Virus record (IMG/VR): IMGVR_UViG_3300032116_000001
Span: 186,001-250,000 of that record
From: a virus
Strand: one strand, 5' to 3'
Length of the DNA stretch: 64,000 nucleotides
Part shown: piece after piece, positions 29,321 through 59,408 of the stretch
Position numbering within the stretch: position 1 is the first letter of the stretch
How the letters are laid out: every line of letters starts with the position of its first letter
Notes under the pieces: model-generated
Told to the model about the DNA's origin: nothing
The model's input: only the letters and a program-made list of their open reading frames with translations
Databases searched by the model: none
Made by a program: the position numbers and the translations under genes

Positions 29321-30247
29321 ATGAACGATAAAATCCCATTTTTGCCAATTGAAGAAATGACTCCAACTTTTGTGATTTCTGCCTTAAGTGAAACGCAAGA
29401 CTGGGGGCTATTGGCATCGGGAATTCCAGAGGCATGGGGTAGATCAAAAGGGGCGGGTATTACTGTTGCCGTACTTGATACTGGCGCTCCGAATCACATA
29501 GATTTAAATGACAATTTGCTACCAGGTCTTAATTGTGCTGGCACACAGGATGAAGTTGATCGCCAGGGACATGCTTTTCACGTGTCAGGTATTATTGCCG
29601 CTCGACAAAATGGTTTTGGTGTAATTGGTGTAGCCCCCGAATGTAAAATTCTTCCAATAAAAGTTTTAGACAACTCGGGTCGATCAAGCTTCCAATCTGT
29701 TATTGATGGAGTGCGCCTTGCAATAGAGCATGGCGCTGATATTATTAACATGAGCCTTGGCTCTCCAACAGAACCACCTCATGAGCTTCATCAAATCATC
29801 AAAGAAGCTCATAATCGGGGTATTATTATTGTGGCAGCTGCTGGTAATGATGGAGGTTCTGTAAATTACCCAGCGAGATATGATGAGGTCATTGCTGTGG
29901 CAGCATTATCAAAAGACGGAAGTATGGCACGCTTTTCTTCACACGGCCCACAAATTGACGCTGTTGCCCCTGGCGTAGATATATATTCGACTTACTTAAA
30001 CAATCAATATGCTCTTTTAAACGGAACAAGCCAAGCTGCACCGTTTATTGCAGGTATTTGTGCATTGCTGTTATCTTGGTCAAGAAATAATGCGGGCGCT
30101 CCGCCAATTAAAAACACACAAGAGATGTTGCAAAGGCTTGACGATCTTTGCGATTCAAAAGGCAGAGTAAATTCGCCAGGCCGCGATGGTGACTGGGGAT
30201 TTGGTATCCCGTCGTTTGCAAATTATATGCCCTGGCGATCACAATAA
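29321..30247 (+). CDS. Subtilisin-like serine protease (S8 family)
   Basis: A 308-residue subtilase. The triad is Asp53 (VAVLDTGAP), His87 (GHAFHVSG, where the family usually has HGTHVAG) and Ser237 (GTSQAAP); the oxyanion Asn176 sits in AAAGNDGG. There is no signal peptide and hardly any propeptide, so the enzyme probably acts in the cytoplasm or in the virion. AGGAG lies just before the ATG. It opens a plus-strand row with two more serine peptidases. Substrates are unknown; processing of virion proteins or degradation of host proteins are both possible. Confidence 0.9.
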   Translation: MNDKIPFLPIEEMTPTFVISALSETQDWGLLASGIPEAWGRSKGAGITVAVLDTGAPNHIDLNDNLLPGLNCAGTQDEVDRQGHAFHVSGIIAARQNGFGVIGVAPECKILPIKVLDNSGRSSFQSVIDGVRLAIEHGADIINMSLGSPTEPPHELHQIIKEAHNRGIIIVAAAGNDGGSVNYPARYDEVIAVAALSKDGSMARFSSHGPQIDAVAPGVDIYSTYLNNQYALLNGTSQAAPFIAGICALLLSWSRNNAGAPPIKNTQEMLQRLDDLCDSKGRVNSPGRDGDWGFGIPSFANYMPWRSQ

Positions 30248-31633: not shown

Positions 31634-32620
31634 ATTAGCAATTATTACCAGGTGCTTGGGATCAGCGAAAATGCAACCCAAGATGAAATTAAATCAGCGT
31701 ATCGCCGCCTTGCTCGCGAAAACCACCCAGATGTAAACCCGAATAATCCAGAAGCGGAAGAAAAATTCAAGGAGATAGGCGAAGCTTACGCAACTTTATC
31801 AGACCCAGACAAGCGCAGGCAATATGATCAAAAGCCAGAAGAAAATTTTTCTTTTGGTGGATTTAATTCTTTTTTCAGAACAGAGATGCCAAATTCCCCC
31901 GTGGTCATTCAAGTTGAAATGACTATGGACGAATTACTCAGAGAGACAAAGAAAAATATTTCTTATCAAAGAGTCTTTAATTGCTCATCATGCAAGGGCG
32001 AGCAGTGCCCTGAATGCCGAGGCAGCGGTGTGAAAATTACCACGCAAAAATTTGATAATTTTCATTTTTATTCTCAGCAATCAAGTTGTCAAAGATGTTT
32101 TGGCAGAGGCGAAATTCGTGACCAAAACTGTCATCAGTGTCACGGAAAAGGCAAATACTTGCAAAACGATTCTATTGAGGTTGTAATACCAGTAGGCTCT
32201 GCACTGAAGGCCTTGATTATAGAAGGTATGGGGTCTAGAGAATCACAAAATCAGCCCCCTGGTCCACTCATCTTAGAGATTATGCCAAAAATATCTGAAC
32301 AATTTGCTTTTGCTGGAAATTATAATCTTTTGTATAATTATGATATTGATCCTGTGAGAGCTATGCTCGGTGGAGAAATAAGTGTGCCTACACCAGAGGG
32401 TGATATGATAAACATAAACCTTAAACCAGGTGTTCAGCACGGACATGCAGAAGAAATAAAGGGATATGGATTGCCGATAAGTGTTCAAGACAGAGGCTCA
32501 ATATATGTAAAATTCAATTACGTAGCGCCGAACAAATTGTCTGATCAACAAAAGGCATCCTTACAGCAATATCTTGATTTGTCCGAAAATAAAAACAAAA
32601 GAGAAGGTAAACAATTATGA
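31634..32620 (+). CDS. dnaJ: DnaJ co-chaperone, apparently starting at ATT
   Basis: A 328-residue Hsp40. The J domain has the HPD motif at residues 31-33 and ends in RRQYDQKP. Four CxxCxG zinc motifs follow from residue 117 (CSSCKG, CPECRG, CQRCFG, CHQCHG), then the C-terminal substrate-binding region. The Gly/Phe linker is very short, so the protein is shorter than the usual 375 residues. The first standard start codon, GTG at 31652, would cut off NYYQ of the conserved YY.VLG opening. An in-frame stop at 31607 leaves no ATG, GTG or TTG before it. ATT at 31634 lies 9 bases after GGAGG and gives MSNYYQVLG. It should work with the DnaK encoded at 37423. Confidence 0.9.
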   Translation: MSNYYQVLGISENATQDEIKSAYRRLARENHPDVNPNNPEAEEKFKEIGEAYATLSDPDKRRQYDQKPEENFSFGGFNSFFRTEMPNSPVVIQVEMTMDELLRETKKNISYQRVFNCSSCKGEQCPECRGSGVKITTQKFDNFHFYSQQSSCQRCFGRGEIRDQNCHQCHGKGKYLQNDSIEVVIPVGSALKALIIEGMGSRESQNQPPGPLILEIMPKISEQFAFAGNYNLLYNYDIDPVRAMLGGEISVPTPEGDMININLKPGVQHGHAEEIKGYGLPISVQDRGSIYVKFNYVAPNKLSDQQKASLQQYLDLSENKNKREGKQL

Positions 32621-33826: not shown

Positions 33827-36800
33827 ATGATGGTAAAATTGGTTATTCAAAATGTGAATACTAAAATTGTGGGTAGCTATGATTTGAATCCCAGCAAATC
33901 AGAGAAAATTCACGAAGCCATTCGCAAGGAGCTTTCTTATTCTGTTCCCGCTGCCGAATGGAGCCCAGCGTTTAAGGAAGGCCGCTGGGACGGCACAATT
34001 TCGCTATATTATAAAAGAAATCAAACATTCCCTACGGGCCTCACCAGTCGCGTAACAAGGGTTTTAAAAGAAAATAATGTAGAATTCACTCTGTCTGACC
34101 AGCGCACCAAGCCCGAGGCCGATTACCCACTAACATGCGATTTTAAGGGAAAGACTCTTCGATTTTATCAAACCGCCGCAGGAGATACTGCAGCTAAATA
34201 TCAAAGAGGAGTAATATCAGCAGCCACGGGCGCGGGCAAAACTATGCTTTCGTGCTATATTTTATCTCAAATTAAAGTCAGACCCGTTGTCTTTATTGTC
34301 CCATCTATTGACCTATTAACTCAAACTCAAAAAGAATTTGAAGGATATCTTAGATTAAATGGCGAGACAATAAAAGTGGGCATGGCAGGTGATAATGTGT
34401 ATGATTTAAACCATGATGGAATAAACATCGTCACTTATCAAACCGCATTGGCCGCTTTTGGCGAAAAATACCAAGAAAAAGGCAGCAAAATTGTTTCTAT
34501 TTCTGATCCCCGCGGCAGTCGTATTAAAACAACCAAGGGCTTAGAAGACGATGTTGAAAAAGCAAAAGAATTATTACAGTCTGCTAAGGCACGCGCCAAA
34601 GACAATCTGCGACATTTAAAGAATGAGTTAGATAATTGCTCAAATGAATTAATCTCTGTCGAACAATCTCCTGTAGACACAAAAGATAAGAAAGCACATG
34701 CAACATGGCTAAAAGAATGCAAGCGTCTTGAAAAAAACTTATCTTCTAAAAAAAGAGCCTATGACAAAGAATTAAAGCTTGCCGTAGGCTCCGCTCAACA
34801 AGCATATGATAAGGCTTTAAGTGCATTAAATAAGAGGCACAAAGCAATCGAAAATAAAGCATCACTTAGAAATCTTATTGAAAATTGCAGCGCTTTTATT
34901 GTTGATGAGGCGCATGTAGCCGCCGTGGTTATTGAGTGCCTGGGCCAACATGCTTCTAAAGCTTATTATAGAATCGGGCTAAGTGTTGCTGCGGAATCGT
35001 TTGTTGAGCTTAAGGGTGGTCCTTTTAATGGCGGATGGGTTGGTACGATAGAAGAAGCTTATAATATTTTATCGCAGTCGCAACTTTGTTCAACGATCTG
35101 CGCCGATGGAGGTTACGAAATCATTAAGCCACATCACGAAGAGGTTTACAGTCGGGGATGGCTTAACACAGGAGGTTTTGGATGGAAGCCGATTAAATCC
35201 TTTATCAGGCACAAAAACACCAAGCCTCTCAAAGTTTTTCGGGCTGGGGGCGACTTTTTGTCTTTAACAGACGATCATTCCATTTTTAAAGCAATGCCAG
35301 ACAATGACGGCAAAAGCAATATTGTTTCCTGCCGATCAGAAGACATAAAACAAAGTGACATTCTTGTTTGCGATGATGGATCAAATTGGCTTGAGCATAA
35401 CCAATTTGATATTGATATGATTAAAGTTATTGAAAAAAGTCCAAACAAATCAAAAATCATTTGTCATTTTAGCAACGACGAAACAAAAACTTCGTTCAAT
35501 AAGCAAATTAAATCACAAAATGGATTGCAATTTGTGGATAAGCTCTCCTTTAATGGGCTATCGTGTGACACTAGGCTAAAAATAAGTGATTTTTCCTTTT
35601 TGTTAGGTCTGTACATTGGTTGCGGTTGGATTACCGATAATTCTGTGAGTTTTGCAATACACAAGGACAATATTGAAGGCTTTATGTTGAATTTTAAAAA
35701 CCTGGAGCACATGGTTTCGCGCATGAGCATTTCGCCTATACTTTCTGACATTGCGGAAATTAAAATAGAAAGCTGGATTTTAAGTGATATTTTTAAATAT
35801 TGGTTCGGCGAATCTAATCAAATCCAAAAAAGATTGCCGCCTGAGTGTATAATGTCTTGGCCCCTTGAGGACAGAAAACGCATTTTAAATGGAATTCAAG
35901 AATCGTGCGGATACTCGGTCAAGTCTATATGTTCTGTTAAATTAAATTCTCACTCGTTGGCGCGGGATGTGCTGGCTCTTTTGAGGTCTTGTGGCATTAA
36001 GGGCATGATTACTTGCCTGGACTCTGATTTATCCGAGCCCAATGAGTTTGGTGTTAATTATATTGACAGCCAAGATAATAACGAGGGCTATTTGTTTATT
36101 GAAGCCCCCGTCAAAGATGTTGAAGAGGAGGTTTCTAATTCTCAATGGGTTTATGATTTTGAAATGCATGATCATCCCTCTTTTGTCGCAAATGGCTTTC
36201 TTGTACATAATTCGGCCACGCCGTGGAGAGAGGACAATCAAGAAGTTAGAATTGAAGGAGCTTTGGGCAAAAAGATATTTGAGATCACGGCTTCTGATTT
36301 AATTGACCTTGGATACCTGGTCCCTCCGATGATTTATATGATTCGAATAAATCACGTTGAGCACGCAGACGATTATGCAGATGTGTATTATAAGCATGTT
36401 ACTAATTGCTGGGAAAGAAATTGGCGCATTAAACAATGTGCCGAGTCATTCAAAGACTCGGGCCGACCCGTGCTAATTCTTGTTGAGCGTCGCGAGCACG
36501 GAGAAATACTTGAGGGCATGATCAAGGATGCAGTTTTTGTGCCTGGTGGAGACAAGGGCGAGGCTGACCCAACTGATGAAGAGAAAAATTATCGTCGCAG
36601 AATGCTGAACAAGGTTGAGGCTAATGAAATTATTCTAATTGCCACGCAGTGGGCTAACGTAGGCATTGATGCACCTGCTATATCTACGTTAATTTTAGCT
36701 GGTTCAGGCCAATCCTCTGTTACGACATACCAACAAATTGGTCGTGTTTTAAGATGCGTTGGGAAAGATGCTCAACAATCTGCAGAAAATGGGAAACCCG

Positions 36801-36913
36801 ATGCTATCGTCATAGACTTTATGGATGAACAAAAATCATTAAGAAAGCACTCTCTAAAAAGAAAGAAAGTTTACAAGCGCGAGCGAGCATTTACATTTAA
36901 GGTGATAAATTGA
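33827..36913 (+). CDS. UvsW-like SF2 DNA helicase interrupted by an intein
   Basis: The precursor has 1,028 residues. The N-terminal domain (about 1-105) has a W....RWDG segment like T4 UvsW. Walker A (ATGAGKT) is near 131, DEAH near 359 and motif VI (QQIGRVLRC) near 969. The intein spans residues 386-795; without it motif III reads GLSATPWRED and the helicase has 618 residues. Residues about 238-348, just before DEAH, form a Lys/Glu-rich coiled-coil insertion that I do not know from UvsW. UvsW unwinds branched DNA and acts in recombination-dependent replication. A strong terminator lies just upstream; the gene's promoter is not clear. Confidence 0.88.
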   Translation: MMVKLVIQNVNTKIVGSYDLNPSKSEKIHEAIRKELSYSVPAAEWSPAFKEGRWDGTISLYYKRNQTFPTGLTSRVTRVLKENNVEFTLSDQRTKPEADYPLTCDFKGKTLRFYQTAAGDTAAKYQRGVISAATGAGKTMLSCYILSQIKVRPVVFIVPSIDLLTQTQKEFEGYLRLNGETIKVGMAGDNVYDLNHDGINIVTYQTALAAFGEKYQEKGSKIVSISDPRGSRIKTTKGLEDDVEKAKELLQSAKARAKDNLRHLKNELDNCSNELISVEQSPVDTKDKKAHATWLKECKRLEKNLSSKKRAYDKELKLAVGSAQQAYDKALSALNKRHKAIENKASLRNLIENCSAFIVDEAHVAAVVIECLGQHASKAYYRIGLSVAAESFVELKGGPFNGGWVGTIEEAYNILSQSQLCSTICADGGYEIIKPHHEEVYSRGWLNTGGFGWKPIKSFIRHKNTKPLKVFRAGGDFLSLTDDHSIFKAMPDNDGKSNIVSCRSEDIKQSDILVCDDGSNWLEHNQFDIDMIKVIEKSPNKSKIICHFSNDETKTSFNKQIKSQNGLQFVDKLSFNGLSCDTRLKISDFSFLLGLYIGCGWITDNSVSFAIHKDNIEGFMLNFKNLEHMVSRMSISPILSDIAEIKIESWILSDIFKYWFGESNQIQKRLPPECIMSWPLEDRKRILNGIQESCGYSVKSICSVKLNSHSLARDVLALLRSCGIKGMITCLDSDLSEPNEFGVNYIDSQDNNEGYLFIEAPVKDVEEEVSNSQWVYDFEMHDHPSFVANGFLVHNSATPWREDNQEVRIEGALGKKIFEITASDLIDLGYLVPPMIYMIRINHVEHADDYADVYYKHVTNCWERNWRIKQCAESFKDSGRPVLILVERREHGEILEGMIKDAVFVPGGDKGEADPTDEEKNYRRRMLNKVEANEIILIATQWANVGIDAPAISTLILAGSGQSSVTTYQQIGRVLRCVGKDAQQSAENGKPDAIVIDFMDEQKSLRKHSLKRKKVYKRERAFTFKVIN
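34982..36211 (+). other. Intein (410 aa) with degenerate LAGLIDADG endonuclease
   Basis: The protein insert begins at Ser386 (SVAAESFVELKG) and ends in VANGFLVHN at residue 795, followed by Ser of the extein. Splicing blocks are present: block B (LTDDHSIF, TxxH), block F (WVYDFEMHDHPSF) and block G (VHN/S). Nucleophile 1 is Ser rather than the commoner Cys. Two LAGLIDADG-type motifs sit at about residues 591-600 (LGLYIGCGW) and 687-696 (LNGIQESCGY), but the acidic catalytic position is Cys in both (Cys599 and Cys694, both TGC). Splicing should work; DNA cleavage probably does not. Confidence 0.9.
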
Positions 36914-37422: not shown

Positions 37423-39168
37423 ATGAGCAATTCAATAGGTATTGATTTAGGAACTACAAATTCAGTTGTTGCATTTGTAAATAGCTCTGGCAAGGTTGAG
37501 GTTATCCCCAGTCGCGAAGGACCTCGCACAACCCCGTCTGTTTTTGCGGTTTCAAATGGCGAGAAAATTGTTGGAAAACAAGCCGTTGATCAAGAATCTA
37601 TGAACGCTGCAAATACCATTAGATCGATTAAAAGGCACATGGGAACTTCTGACAGATTTGCCTTTGATGGAATTGAAGCGCCATTAAGCCCCGAAGAAAT
37701 TTCATCCGAAATACTAAAGAAGCTAAAAAAAGATGCGGAAATTTTTATCGGAGAACCTGTGGAAAATGCTGTCATAACTGTCCCTGCATATTTTAATAAT
37801 GACCAGAGACAAGCCACAAAAACTGCAGGAGAGCTAGCTGGGCTCAATGTGTTACGCATTATAAACGAACCCACTGCAGCTGCGTTGGCATATGGGCTTG
37901 ACACTAGCATAAGCAAAACTGTTTTAGTTTATGATCTCGGCGGCGGCACTTTTGATGTTACTTTGCTTAAGATATCTGATGGCATGGACTTTATGGTTCA
38001 GTCAACAAGCGGAGACACACATCTTGGCGGCGACGATTTTGACGCAGAGATAGAAAAGATAATTATTGAAAAATCTAACATTGATTATAATCTAGATGCA
38101 TCTATGCGGGCACGACTGCGCGACGCGGCAGAACAAGCAAAAAAAGAACTTTCGTCTAGCAAAATATCTAACGTTTATATACCTTACTTCTTTTTTGTAA
38201 ACAACCAACCCGTTCATATTAGTGTGTCAATCGACAAATCAGAATTTGAACAAAGAATCGCCCATCTTGTTGAAAAAACAAAAAAATGTATCGAATCTGC
38301 AATTCGTGACGCAAATATCACTTTTAATGACATTGATGAGGTGGTTTTTGTTGGCGGGTCAACAAGAATACCGCTTATTACATCTGAGGTCAAATCGTGG
38401 ACTGGAAAAACACCAGATAAATCTATAAACCCCGATGAGGCCGTGGCTATCGGCGCAGCCATACAAGCAAGTATTCTCTCGGGAGAAAGCGACAAAGAGA
38501 TGTTTCTATTTGATGTAACTCCTTTGTCTTTGGGTGTTGAAACCGAAGGAGGCATCATGGATGTTTTAATTCCAAGAAACACGCATGTGCCTGCAGAAGT
38601 CACGCAAACTTATACTACAGCTTATGACAAACAATCCAGTGTTGATGTAAGGGTTTTTCAGGGAGAAAGACCAAGGACTAAAGACAACAAGCACCTCGGA
38701 GAATTTCAACTATCTGGCATTCCCCCTGCCCCACGGGGCGCTCCGCAGATTGATGTTTCTTTTGAAATAGATGCAAATGGGATACTATTTGTCCGTGCCT
38801 GCGATAAGATTACAGGCATTGAACACAAAGTCACTCTTACGGGCAACTCATCTTTAAGCTCAGACGAAATACAAAAAATGATTCATGATGCTGAGATAAA
38901 CAAAAATGAAGATTCAATGTTCATTCTCGTTGCAAATCTGCAGTCAAAAATAAAAGACCAAATCATTCAGTGTGAAGAAATATTAAGAACCGATGCAATC
39001 AGCGAAAATCAAAAAGACGATATTGATGATTTAATTCAGTCTCTTGAAGATGCCAAAGACTCTACGCAAATTGAGTTAATGACTGCTCTTGCAGAGTCAG
39101 CAGACAAAACTCTTCTGGAAATAAGTGAGTACATTTATAAAATGGCCGAAGACCATGTTCAAAATTAA
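37423..39168 (+). CDS. dnaK: Hsp70 chaperone DnaK
   Basis: A 581-residue DnaK. Phosphate loop 1 is [10 protein letters not shown] near the N-terminus, phosphate loop 2 is DLGGGTFDV, and the adenosine motif [10 protein letters not shown] is intact. The substrate-binding domain follows ([26 protein letters not shown] before it). The helical lid is shortened, so the protein is about 55 residues shorter than E. coli DnaK, and it lacks the usual acidic EEVD-like C-terminus. It would use ATP to bind and release unfolded proteins together with the DnaJ at 31634. I found no GrpE gene in the window, so host GrpE may be used. Confidence 0.96.
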
Positions 39169-57980: not shown

Positions 57981-59351
57981 TTATCGCTGAGATTCAGGTC
58001 GCTTGAATATTTCGCTAGCCACAGCAGCTAAACTTGATCGTTCGACCTTTGTGAGTGCTACTCCTGCAACAAGCTCGCTATTTTTGCCACCTTGCATAGC
58101 ATGAGCCAAGCCATTAGAACGTGCATCCAAGTAAGTGTTTTCAACTTGGCTTAAATCACCAAGAAGAACTACTTTGCTTCCCTTGCCACATCTTTCAACT
58201 ACCATGCGAGCTTCACGTGGTGTTAAGTTTTGTGATTCGTCAACAATAACAACAGCCTTGGGTATTGATCTGCCCTGAATAAAAGCCATAGCTTCTACTT
58301 CTATTGTGCCATCGTGAACCATTTCCTCGAATGGACTCGCGCCAGATTGAGTGCTCGAACCAAGCAATTGTTCAATATTGTCTCGCATAGGCCCAAGCCA
58401 TGCGCTAATTTTTTCAAACTTATCACCTGGCAAGAACCCAATATCTTTTCCTCCAACAGCAATAAGCGGCTTGATAACAATGATTTTGTCATAAATACCA
58501 TCATCAACTTGCTGCAAAGCCACAGCCAAGGTAAGCATTGTTTTTCCAGTCCCAGCTGGACCACACAATGTTACTAATGGAACATTTGTGTCAGCTAATG
58601 CGGTCATGGCACATCTTTGCTCAAGGTTTTTTGGAGAAATGTCCATAAACGTGGGTTTTTTGCGATCTATTCCATTAGATTTGTCCTTTAATACCTGTAG
58701 CACTCCTTTTTTGTGATATGTTGGGCAGGCTTGGTCGCCAAACTGAAAAATTACGAATTCATTTGGTGATATGTCCTTAATTGTTTCTTTAAGCTCTGCA
58801 GAAAGTTTTTTGATTTCAATATTTTCTGCGCTCCACAGCATATCCCAATCTTTACTTTCTGATAAAACAACTTTTCGCATCCCAGTGTAACTTGCATCTT
58901 CAAGCAAGTCTGAGCGATAGTTTTCAGCCTCACAGCCCCAGCTCATTGCTCTGATTCTTAGGCCTGTATCTTTGGTTACAATTGAAACTTTTTTCTTTGG
59001 GTTTGCTGTTTTAAGAGATAGACAAGCTTCAATTATTGCATTGTCGGAATGCACTTTGACAATGTTTGGTCTTTCATTTTTTTGTAAAGGTGCTTCGGGG
59101 TTATAAATAAATAATCTTCCCCCCTTGTCATTAACTTTGACCCCTTTCATTAAATCTGGTAACGAATATTTTTCAAGCTGTCGGAACACTTCTCTTGCGC
59201 TCCATCCTACACTTTCTTTTCGCGTTTTGATGTCGTCTAAATCATCAATAACAGCAAGTGGAATGTAGATGTCATTCTCATTGAATTTGTAGATCGCTTG
59301 GGGATCGTGGAGTAGAACGCACGTGTCAACGATGTAGATGTGCTTAGCCAA
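57981..59351 (-). CDS. phoH: PIN-PhoH protein
   Basis: A 456-residue protein counted from the TTG at 59351, which follows AAAGGAGAG by 5 bases; an ATG at 59381 in frame has no such site. The N-terminal PIN domain (IYIVDTCVLLHDP with Asp9) is an RNase fold. The C-terminal half is a PhoH ATPase with Walker A GPAGTGKT near residue 260 and Walker B VVIVDESQN. Fused PIN-PhoH proteins are known as RNA helicase/RNase enzymes. In phages PhoH is frequent but its role is unsettled; RNA turnover during infection is likely. A J-domain gene lies just upstream. Confidence 0.9.
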   Translation of the reverse strand: MAKHIYIVDTCVLLHDPQAIYKFNENDIYIPLAVIDDLDDIKTRKESVGWSAREVFRQLEKYSLPDLMKGVKVNDKGGRLFIYNPEAPLQKNERPNIVKVHSDNAIIEACLSLKTANPKKKVSIVTKDTGLRIRAMSWGCEAENYRSDLLEDASYTGMRKVVLSESKDWDMLWSAENIEIKKLSAELKETIKDISPNEFVIFQFGDQACPTYHKKGVLQVLKDKSNGIDRKKPTFMDISPKNLEQRCAMTALADTNVPLVTLCGPAGTGKTMLTLAVALQQVDDGIYDKIIVIKPLIAVGGKDIGFLPGDKFEKISAWLGPMRDNIEQLLGSSTQSGASPFEEMVHDGTIEVEAMAFIQGRSIPKAVVIVDESQNLTPREARMVVERCGKGSKVVLLGDLSQVENTYLDARSNGLAHAMQGGKNSELVAGVALTKVERSSLAAVASEIFKRPESQR

Positions 59352-59408
59352 GATTACTCTCCTTTTTTGTCGATGTTGCAACCACTGTCACTGCCTGTCT
59401 TCGACACC

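Follow-up and report, generated by a model that had tools for sequence, protein, structure and literature searches.

An intein in a viral helicase gene with Cys at both of the positions where a LAGLIDADG endonuclease is expected to have its metal-binding acids raises the question of whether the element has simply lost its homing activity or has adapted its active site to a different chemistry. The initial annotation of this DNA considered loss of homing the simple explanation, and suggested that the paired change could also reflect redox control or a change in metal binding. The gene lies in the window, the 64,000-base stretch analyzed here, which is part of a 378,848-base IMG/VR virus record (IMGVR_UViG_3300032116_000001, positions 186,001 to 250,000).

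Profile searches matched the precursor protein to Pfam UvsW_N (30.0 bits, cut-off 25.3), ResIII and Helicase_C, and to the PHROG_16 DNA helicase with an E value of 4e-65. The exteins carry helicase motifs I (ATGAGKT), II (DEAH), and VI (QQIGRVLR), with motif III also present in the alignment, and they aligned over their full length with phage UvsW-type helicases (36% identity to that of Bacillus phage vB_BpsS-140). T4-type UvsW helicases share UvsW_N and helicase domains with these exteins, but in those aligned here motif III is uninterrupted, and the highest identity found was 46%, to the nearest UvsW relative (L042:2489-5188), which is encoded on a 478,840-base contig and has no insert in motif III. 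When the protein was aligned with four phage UvsW-type helicases that lack an intein, the insert fell between RIGL and SATPWRED, in motif III, and the helicase proved to be whole without it, as expected for a class 1 intein. The annotated insertion point was thus exact (GL/SATP), as were the annotated limits and frame, 34982-36211, which give 410 residues without stops inside a 1028-residue open reading frame. The gene and the parts that bear on splicing are as follows.

33827..36913, + strand: UvsW-like SF2 helicase precursor gene, 1028 aa, 618 aa after splicing
34976..34981, + strand: end of the N-extein, Gly-Leu, in helicase motif III (from the alignment)
34982..36211, + strand: intein, 410 aa, Ser1 to Asn410, followed by the +1 Ser (translation without stops)
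34982..35386, + strand: N-terminal splicing (Hint) part, residues 1-135 (from the family alignment)
34982..34984, + strand: Ser1, putative N-terminal splicing nucleophile (block A), Ser in 9/9 full-length family members
35267..35278, + strand: TDDH, block B (TxxH) motif, residues 96-99, in which His99 corresponds to a His in every full-length relative
36098..36211, + strand: C-terminal splicing part, blocks F and G, residues 373-410, ending VYDFEMHDHPSFVANGFLVHN (from the alignment)
36212..36223, + strand: start of the C-extein, Ser-Ala-Thr-Pro, in motif III, with Ser as the putative +1 nucleophile (from the alignment)

The combination of Ser1, TDDH, VYDFEM...HPSFVANGFLVHN, and Ser+1 fits a class 1 intein, and the insert is predicted to be of this type and to splice. 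The C-terminal end, H409-N410 followed by the +1 Ser, matched TIGR01443 intein_Cterm at 22.3 bits (cut-off 15.6). The splicing-domain profile Intein_splicing was matched with an E value of 7.5e-8 and 32.8 bits, short of its curated cut-off of 35.8, and the assignment was backed by a fold search with a structure model.

Several other genes in the window were recognizable. The helicase gene is flanked by genes for DnaJ with its zinc-finger domain (31652-32620, +) and for a full Hsp70/DnaK (37423-39168, +). A subtilisin-like protease (Peptidase_S8, E 1e-54) is encoded at 29321-30247 (+), and a PhoH-like protein with an N-terminal PIN domain at 57981-59381 (-).

Ten other viral sequences (L010, L011, L012, L013, L014, L018, L019, L023, L035, and L037) contained homologous inteins at this motif III site. 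Their hosts were of three SF2 helicase kinds, UvsW-like, SNF2-like, and XPB/SSL2-like (the last two labels assigned by eye from sequence), and their junctions were GL/S or T-ATP with small variations. One of them, in a UvsW-like helicase (L007, found again as L013; 27% identity, BLASTP E 4e-44; Asp at both catalytic positions), was retrieved with a DNA pattern for His-Asn/Ser-Ala-Thr-Pro-Trp-Arg, and the other nine with alignment-based scans and a second pattern; the L019 sequence recurs as L021 in another record. These inteins share with the window intein the insertion point, the Hint and LAGLIDADG domains, and, in all full-length members, Ser1, at 22-33% identity. They differ from it in having Asp at every catalytic position covered, a basic endonuclease, and about 50 more residues in that region. 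In the collections searched with patterns and alignments the window intein was represented by one sequence, with its nearest homolog about 33% identical. Single-sequence scans of the viral contigs gave no close relative of the intein or precursor, and those of phage and plasmid records gave weak matches at most. The inteins recovered from genome contigs were all distant ones from other hosts, and each had Asp. A same-site intein in an SNF2 gene on plasmid p1 of Microcystis aeruginosa NIES-2481 (L041:295-4467) also keeps GDGW and SDG. The annotation had proposed looking for relatives with GCG or SCG, and there were none among those recovered, although the patterns used to scan for motif 1 accepted Cys as readily as Asp.

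Other features of these helicase genes were observed. In L041, an IS4-family transposase gene interrupts the endonuclease region of the intein, so this copy should no longer be able to splice. Several viral SF2 helicases contain two inteins each, at motif III together with motif I (L007, L035) or motif II (L019). In the SNF2-like gene L011:2945-7489, a second LAGLIDADG-type intein was recognized by eye near motif VI (Q/CVGRVHRDGQ region), and L042 has an intein in motif I that looks, by eye, like class 3 and whose first LAGLIDADG motif, LLGCWLGGGG, has Gly at the catalytic position. Two inteins are also present in the UvsW-like helicase L113:2-3190, one in motif II (DE/CH) and the other at the motif III junction used by the window intein. 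The nuclease in each looks unlike LAGLIDADG, which indicates that inteins of unrelated types have inserted in motif III.

The elements of the endonuclease region of the window intein are as follows.

35387..36097, + strand: degenerate LAGLIDADG endonuclease and accessory region, residues 136-372 (from conserved positions, length, charge, and pI)
35582..35623, + strand: first LAGLIDADG helix, residues 201-214, ending in Cys214 (DSSP of the model; GDGW to GCGW in the family alignment)
35621..35623, + strand: Cys214 (TGC), first catalytic acid position (family alignment, HMM against PI-SceI)
35828..35830, + strand: Lys283 (AAA), conserved block D lysine, invariant in 11/11 family members and aligned with the Lys of KNIP in PI-SceI
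35864..35908, + strand: second LAGLIDADG helix, residues 295-309, ending in Cys309 (DSSP of the model)
35906..35908, + strand: Cys309 (TGC), second catalytic acid position (family alignment, HMM against PI-SceI)

Cys214 and Cys309 of the intein are Cys599 and Cys694 of the precursor. Three lines of evidence agreed with the annotation in placing them at the catalytic positions, where an active LAGLIDADG enzyme has an acid at the end of each helix. Asp was found at the first position in 9/9 of the same-site relatives that cover it and at the second in 10/10; the family HMM matched the two Cys columns to PI-SceI, the first to GDG (Asp218, by counting) and the second to SDG; and in the model each of the two helices ends exactly on one Cys. 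The possibility that the catalytic acids lie elsewhere in the protein was thus not borne out. The annotation had also counted two base changes for each Asp-to-Cys replacement, which is correct from GAC, but three are needed to reach TGC from GAT, and the relatives use both codons. No case of Cys at LAGLIDADG catalytic positions appeared in the titles and abstracts returned by a literature search.

The Cys residues were only part of the change in this region. Conserved columns were defined by agreement in at least seven of the eight other full-length members, and the window intein kept 37 of 40 such positions in the Hint part, in line with the annotated retention of the splicing blocks, and 24 of 46 in the endonuclease region (Fisher p 3.5e-5). 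Among the eight full-length relatives, seven kept 85-94% of the endonuclease-region positions, and the divergent L023 kept 70% there and 51% in the Hint part. The endonuclease region was also shorter (237 aa versus 284-298 in relatives) and acidic rather than basic, with a net charge of -5 (versus +9 to +22) and a pI of 5.58 (versus 9.14-10.96). Two conserved segments were missing, LPxxxYxxxRxxLPxP before the first helix and GGxxxGRQIxGxRxSYxVxWS after the second; when the intein of L010 was modeled, these segments folded into additional helices and strands. The terminal branch of the window intein was 0.77 for the Hint part and 1.88 for the endonuclease, a ratio of 2.45 compared to 0.48-1.29 in relatives, as measured on one common topology in which several internal nodes had weak support (39-49). 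Pfam LAGLIDADG_3 was matched in 10 of the 11 family members and was absent only from the window intein, for which the Hom_end profile gave 14.5 bits, below its cut-off of 21.1. As far as the sequence indicates, decay is confined to the endonuclease region. It appears to be partial, because no stop interrupts the frame and the block D lysine and packing glycines remain; the helix-packing residues G209, G213, G215, G304, S308, and G310 are all retained, and many of the core replacements are conservative. The open frame is less telling, as a stop codon would kill the helicase. Codon-position GC was considered as evidence for relaxed selection and rejected: GC1 was 0.37, below all 207 segments from other genes and thus unusual for this phage, but it drops similarly in the relatives.

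An AlphaFold2 model of the window intein, built with nine family members, retained the LAGLIDADG fold (mean pLDDT 80.9, pTM 0.83). The nearest solved structures were TliVMA, PhoVMA, PI-TkoII, PI-PfuI, and PI-SceI, and Foldseek matched the model to TliVMA with an E value of 1.5e-19, recovering the two-helix pseudo-symmetric fold. PI-SceI and PI-TkoII (PI-PkoII) aligned to the family profile in their fold and both LAGLIDADG motifs, but PI-SceI has catalytic Asp at both positions, and the hosts and insertion sites of both inteins differ from those of the window intein. The most instructive comparison is with PhoVMA of Pyrococcus horikoshii (PDB 7qst), which is likewise a full-size intein with a folded LAGLIDADG domain and a truncated, acidic endonuclease (PMC8966425). 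Active-site residues are missing from both of its helices, and it shows neither cleavage of the empty site nor detectable DNA binding; its surface pI is 5.45, compared to 10.23 in the active TliVMA (PMC8966425). There are differences: PhoVMA has an archaeal V-ATPase host, Cys1, and 14% identity to the window intein in the structural alignment; and one of its helices is a turn shorter, while in the window intein Cys replaces Asp at full helix length. By analogy, the window intein appears to follow the PhoVMA pattern, with the same set of losses.

These data favor, with a probability of roughly 90%, an intein that has reached the degeneration phase of the homing cycle, in which splicing is kept and homing is lost. 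In this cycle the intein would have become fixed, after which selection on the host protein would maintain splicing as the endonuclease decays. The Hint domain would still excise the insert and rejoin helicase motif III, its activity being retained because the phage needs the UvsW-like helicase. The LAGLIDADG endonuclease would formerly have spread the intein to empty alleles, and cutting would now be lost because both metal-binding Asp residues became Cys; binding of the site was probably lost as well, given the disappearance of the basic charge and of the two conserved segments. The Cys pair itself may be a side effect of the acids no longer being under selection, since small uncharged residues suit the tight ends of the paired helices. 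Because its helix-packing residues are kept, the domain probably persists as a folded scaffold. The DNA-cutting half is almost certainly a worn-out homing endonuclease, at an expected stage of its life rather than with a new chemistry. The simple explanation in the annotation is therefore supported, by the erosion of the whole region and not by the Cys residues alone.

Retention of the fold could also have a positive cause, if splicing has come to depend on the endonuclease domain, so that the structure has been kept for that reason and is not the remnant of recent decay. The preserved packing residues and the conservative core replacements are consistent with such a structural mutualism, and dependence of splicing on the endonuclease has been described for other inteins (PMC8966425). 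This is possible, if somewhat doubtful; slow decay looks identical in one sequence, and a dependence of this kind would be compatible with the loss of homing rather than opposed to it.

The readings that give the Cys pair a function of its own fared worse. The annotation took the paired change as a possible sign of metal or redox control, but the pairing is weak evidence for this. When two freed sites were drawn from the composition of the region they matched in 7.5% of draws, or in 25% if only small uncharged residues were allowed; the specific Cys-Cys pair arose in 0.08% to 0.7% of draws, but any matching pair would have been striking beforehand, so the pairing itself says little. Erosion across the region is explained by loss of function and not by a re-tuned active site, and therefore the metal or redox reading is not supported. 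No special chemistry of the Cys pair is needed to explain the data.

One version of this idea is that the two Cys form a disulfide, or a site for Zn or another soft metal, that clamps a dead endonuclease and acts as a brake on splicing of the helicase. The two residues do end neighboring paired helices in the model, and DnaB inteins are reported to be redox or zinc sensitive (PMC6195587, PMC7360933). The intein is also rich in Cys, with 12 in 410 residues compared to 9 in the 618 extein residues, but the 8 Cys in its endonuclease region fall within the range of 2-9 seen in relatives with Asp at both sites. In known examples of redox-sensitive inteins the reactive Cys sits in the splicing site, while the nucleophiles of the window intein are Ser. 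A chance match of two freed sites is also not rare, and a switch of this kind is very unlikely.

A still active endonuclease with altered chemistry, in which the thiolates would hold a soft or transition metal (Zn, Mn, or Fe) at the helix junction and DNA would still be cleaved, is less probable again. The symmetric placement of the Cys at the metal positions and the retained Lys283 would suit such an enzyme, but it would not account for the accompanying losses of DNA-binding charge, of both conserved segments, and of the LAGLIDADG_3 match, and no relative sharing the Cys was recovered by patterns open to it. Least credible is an assembly or sequencing error, for although the intein comes from a single metagenomic record, an error would have had to make two or three substitutions at each of two sites and leave the frame open, in a domain that is independently eroded.

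The window intein, with homing apparently lost and splicing kept, provides a clean natural example of this stage in a large phage, for which apparently intact relatives at the same site are available for comparison. In addition, one intein family occupies motif III of UvsW-like, SNF2-like, and XPB/SSL2-like helicases, and this spread makes the family a good subject for work on the movement of inteins between non-orthologous hosts.
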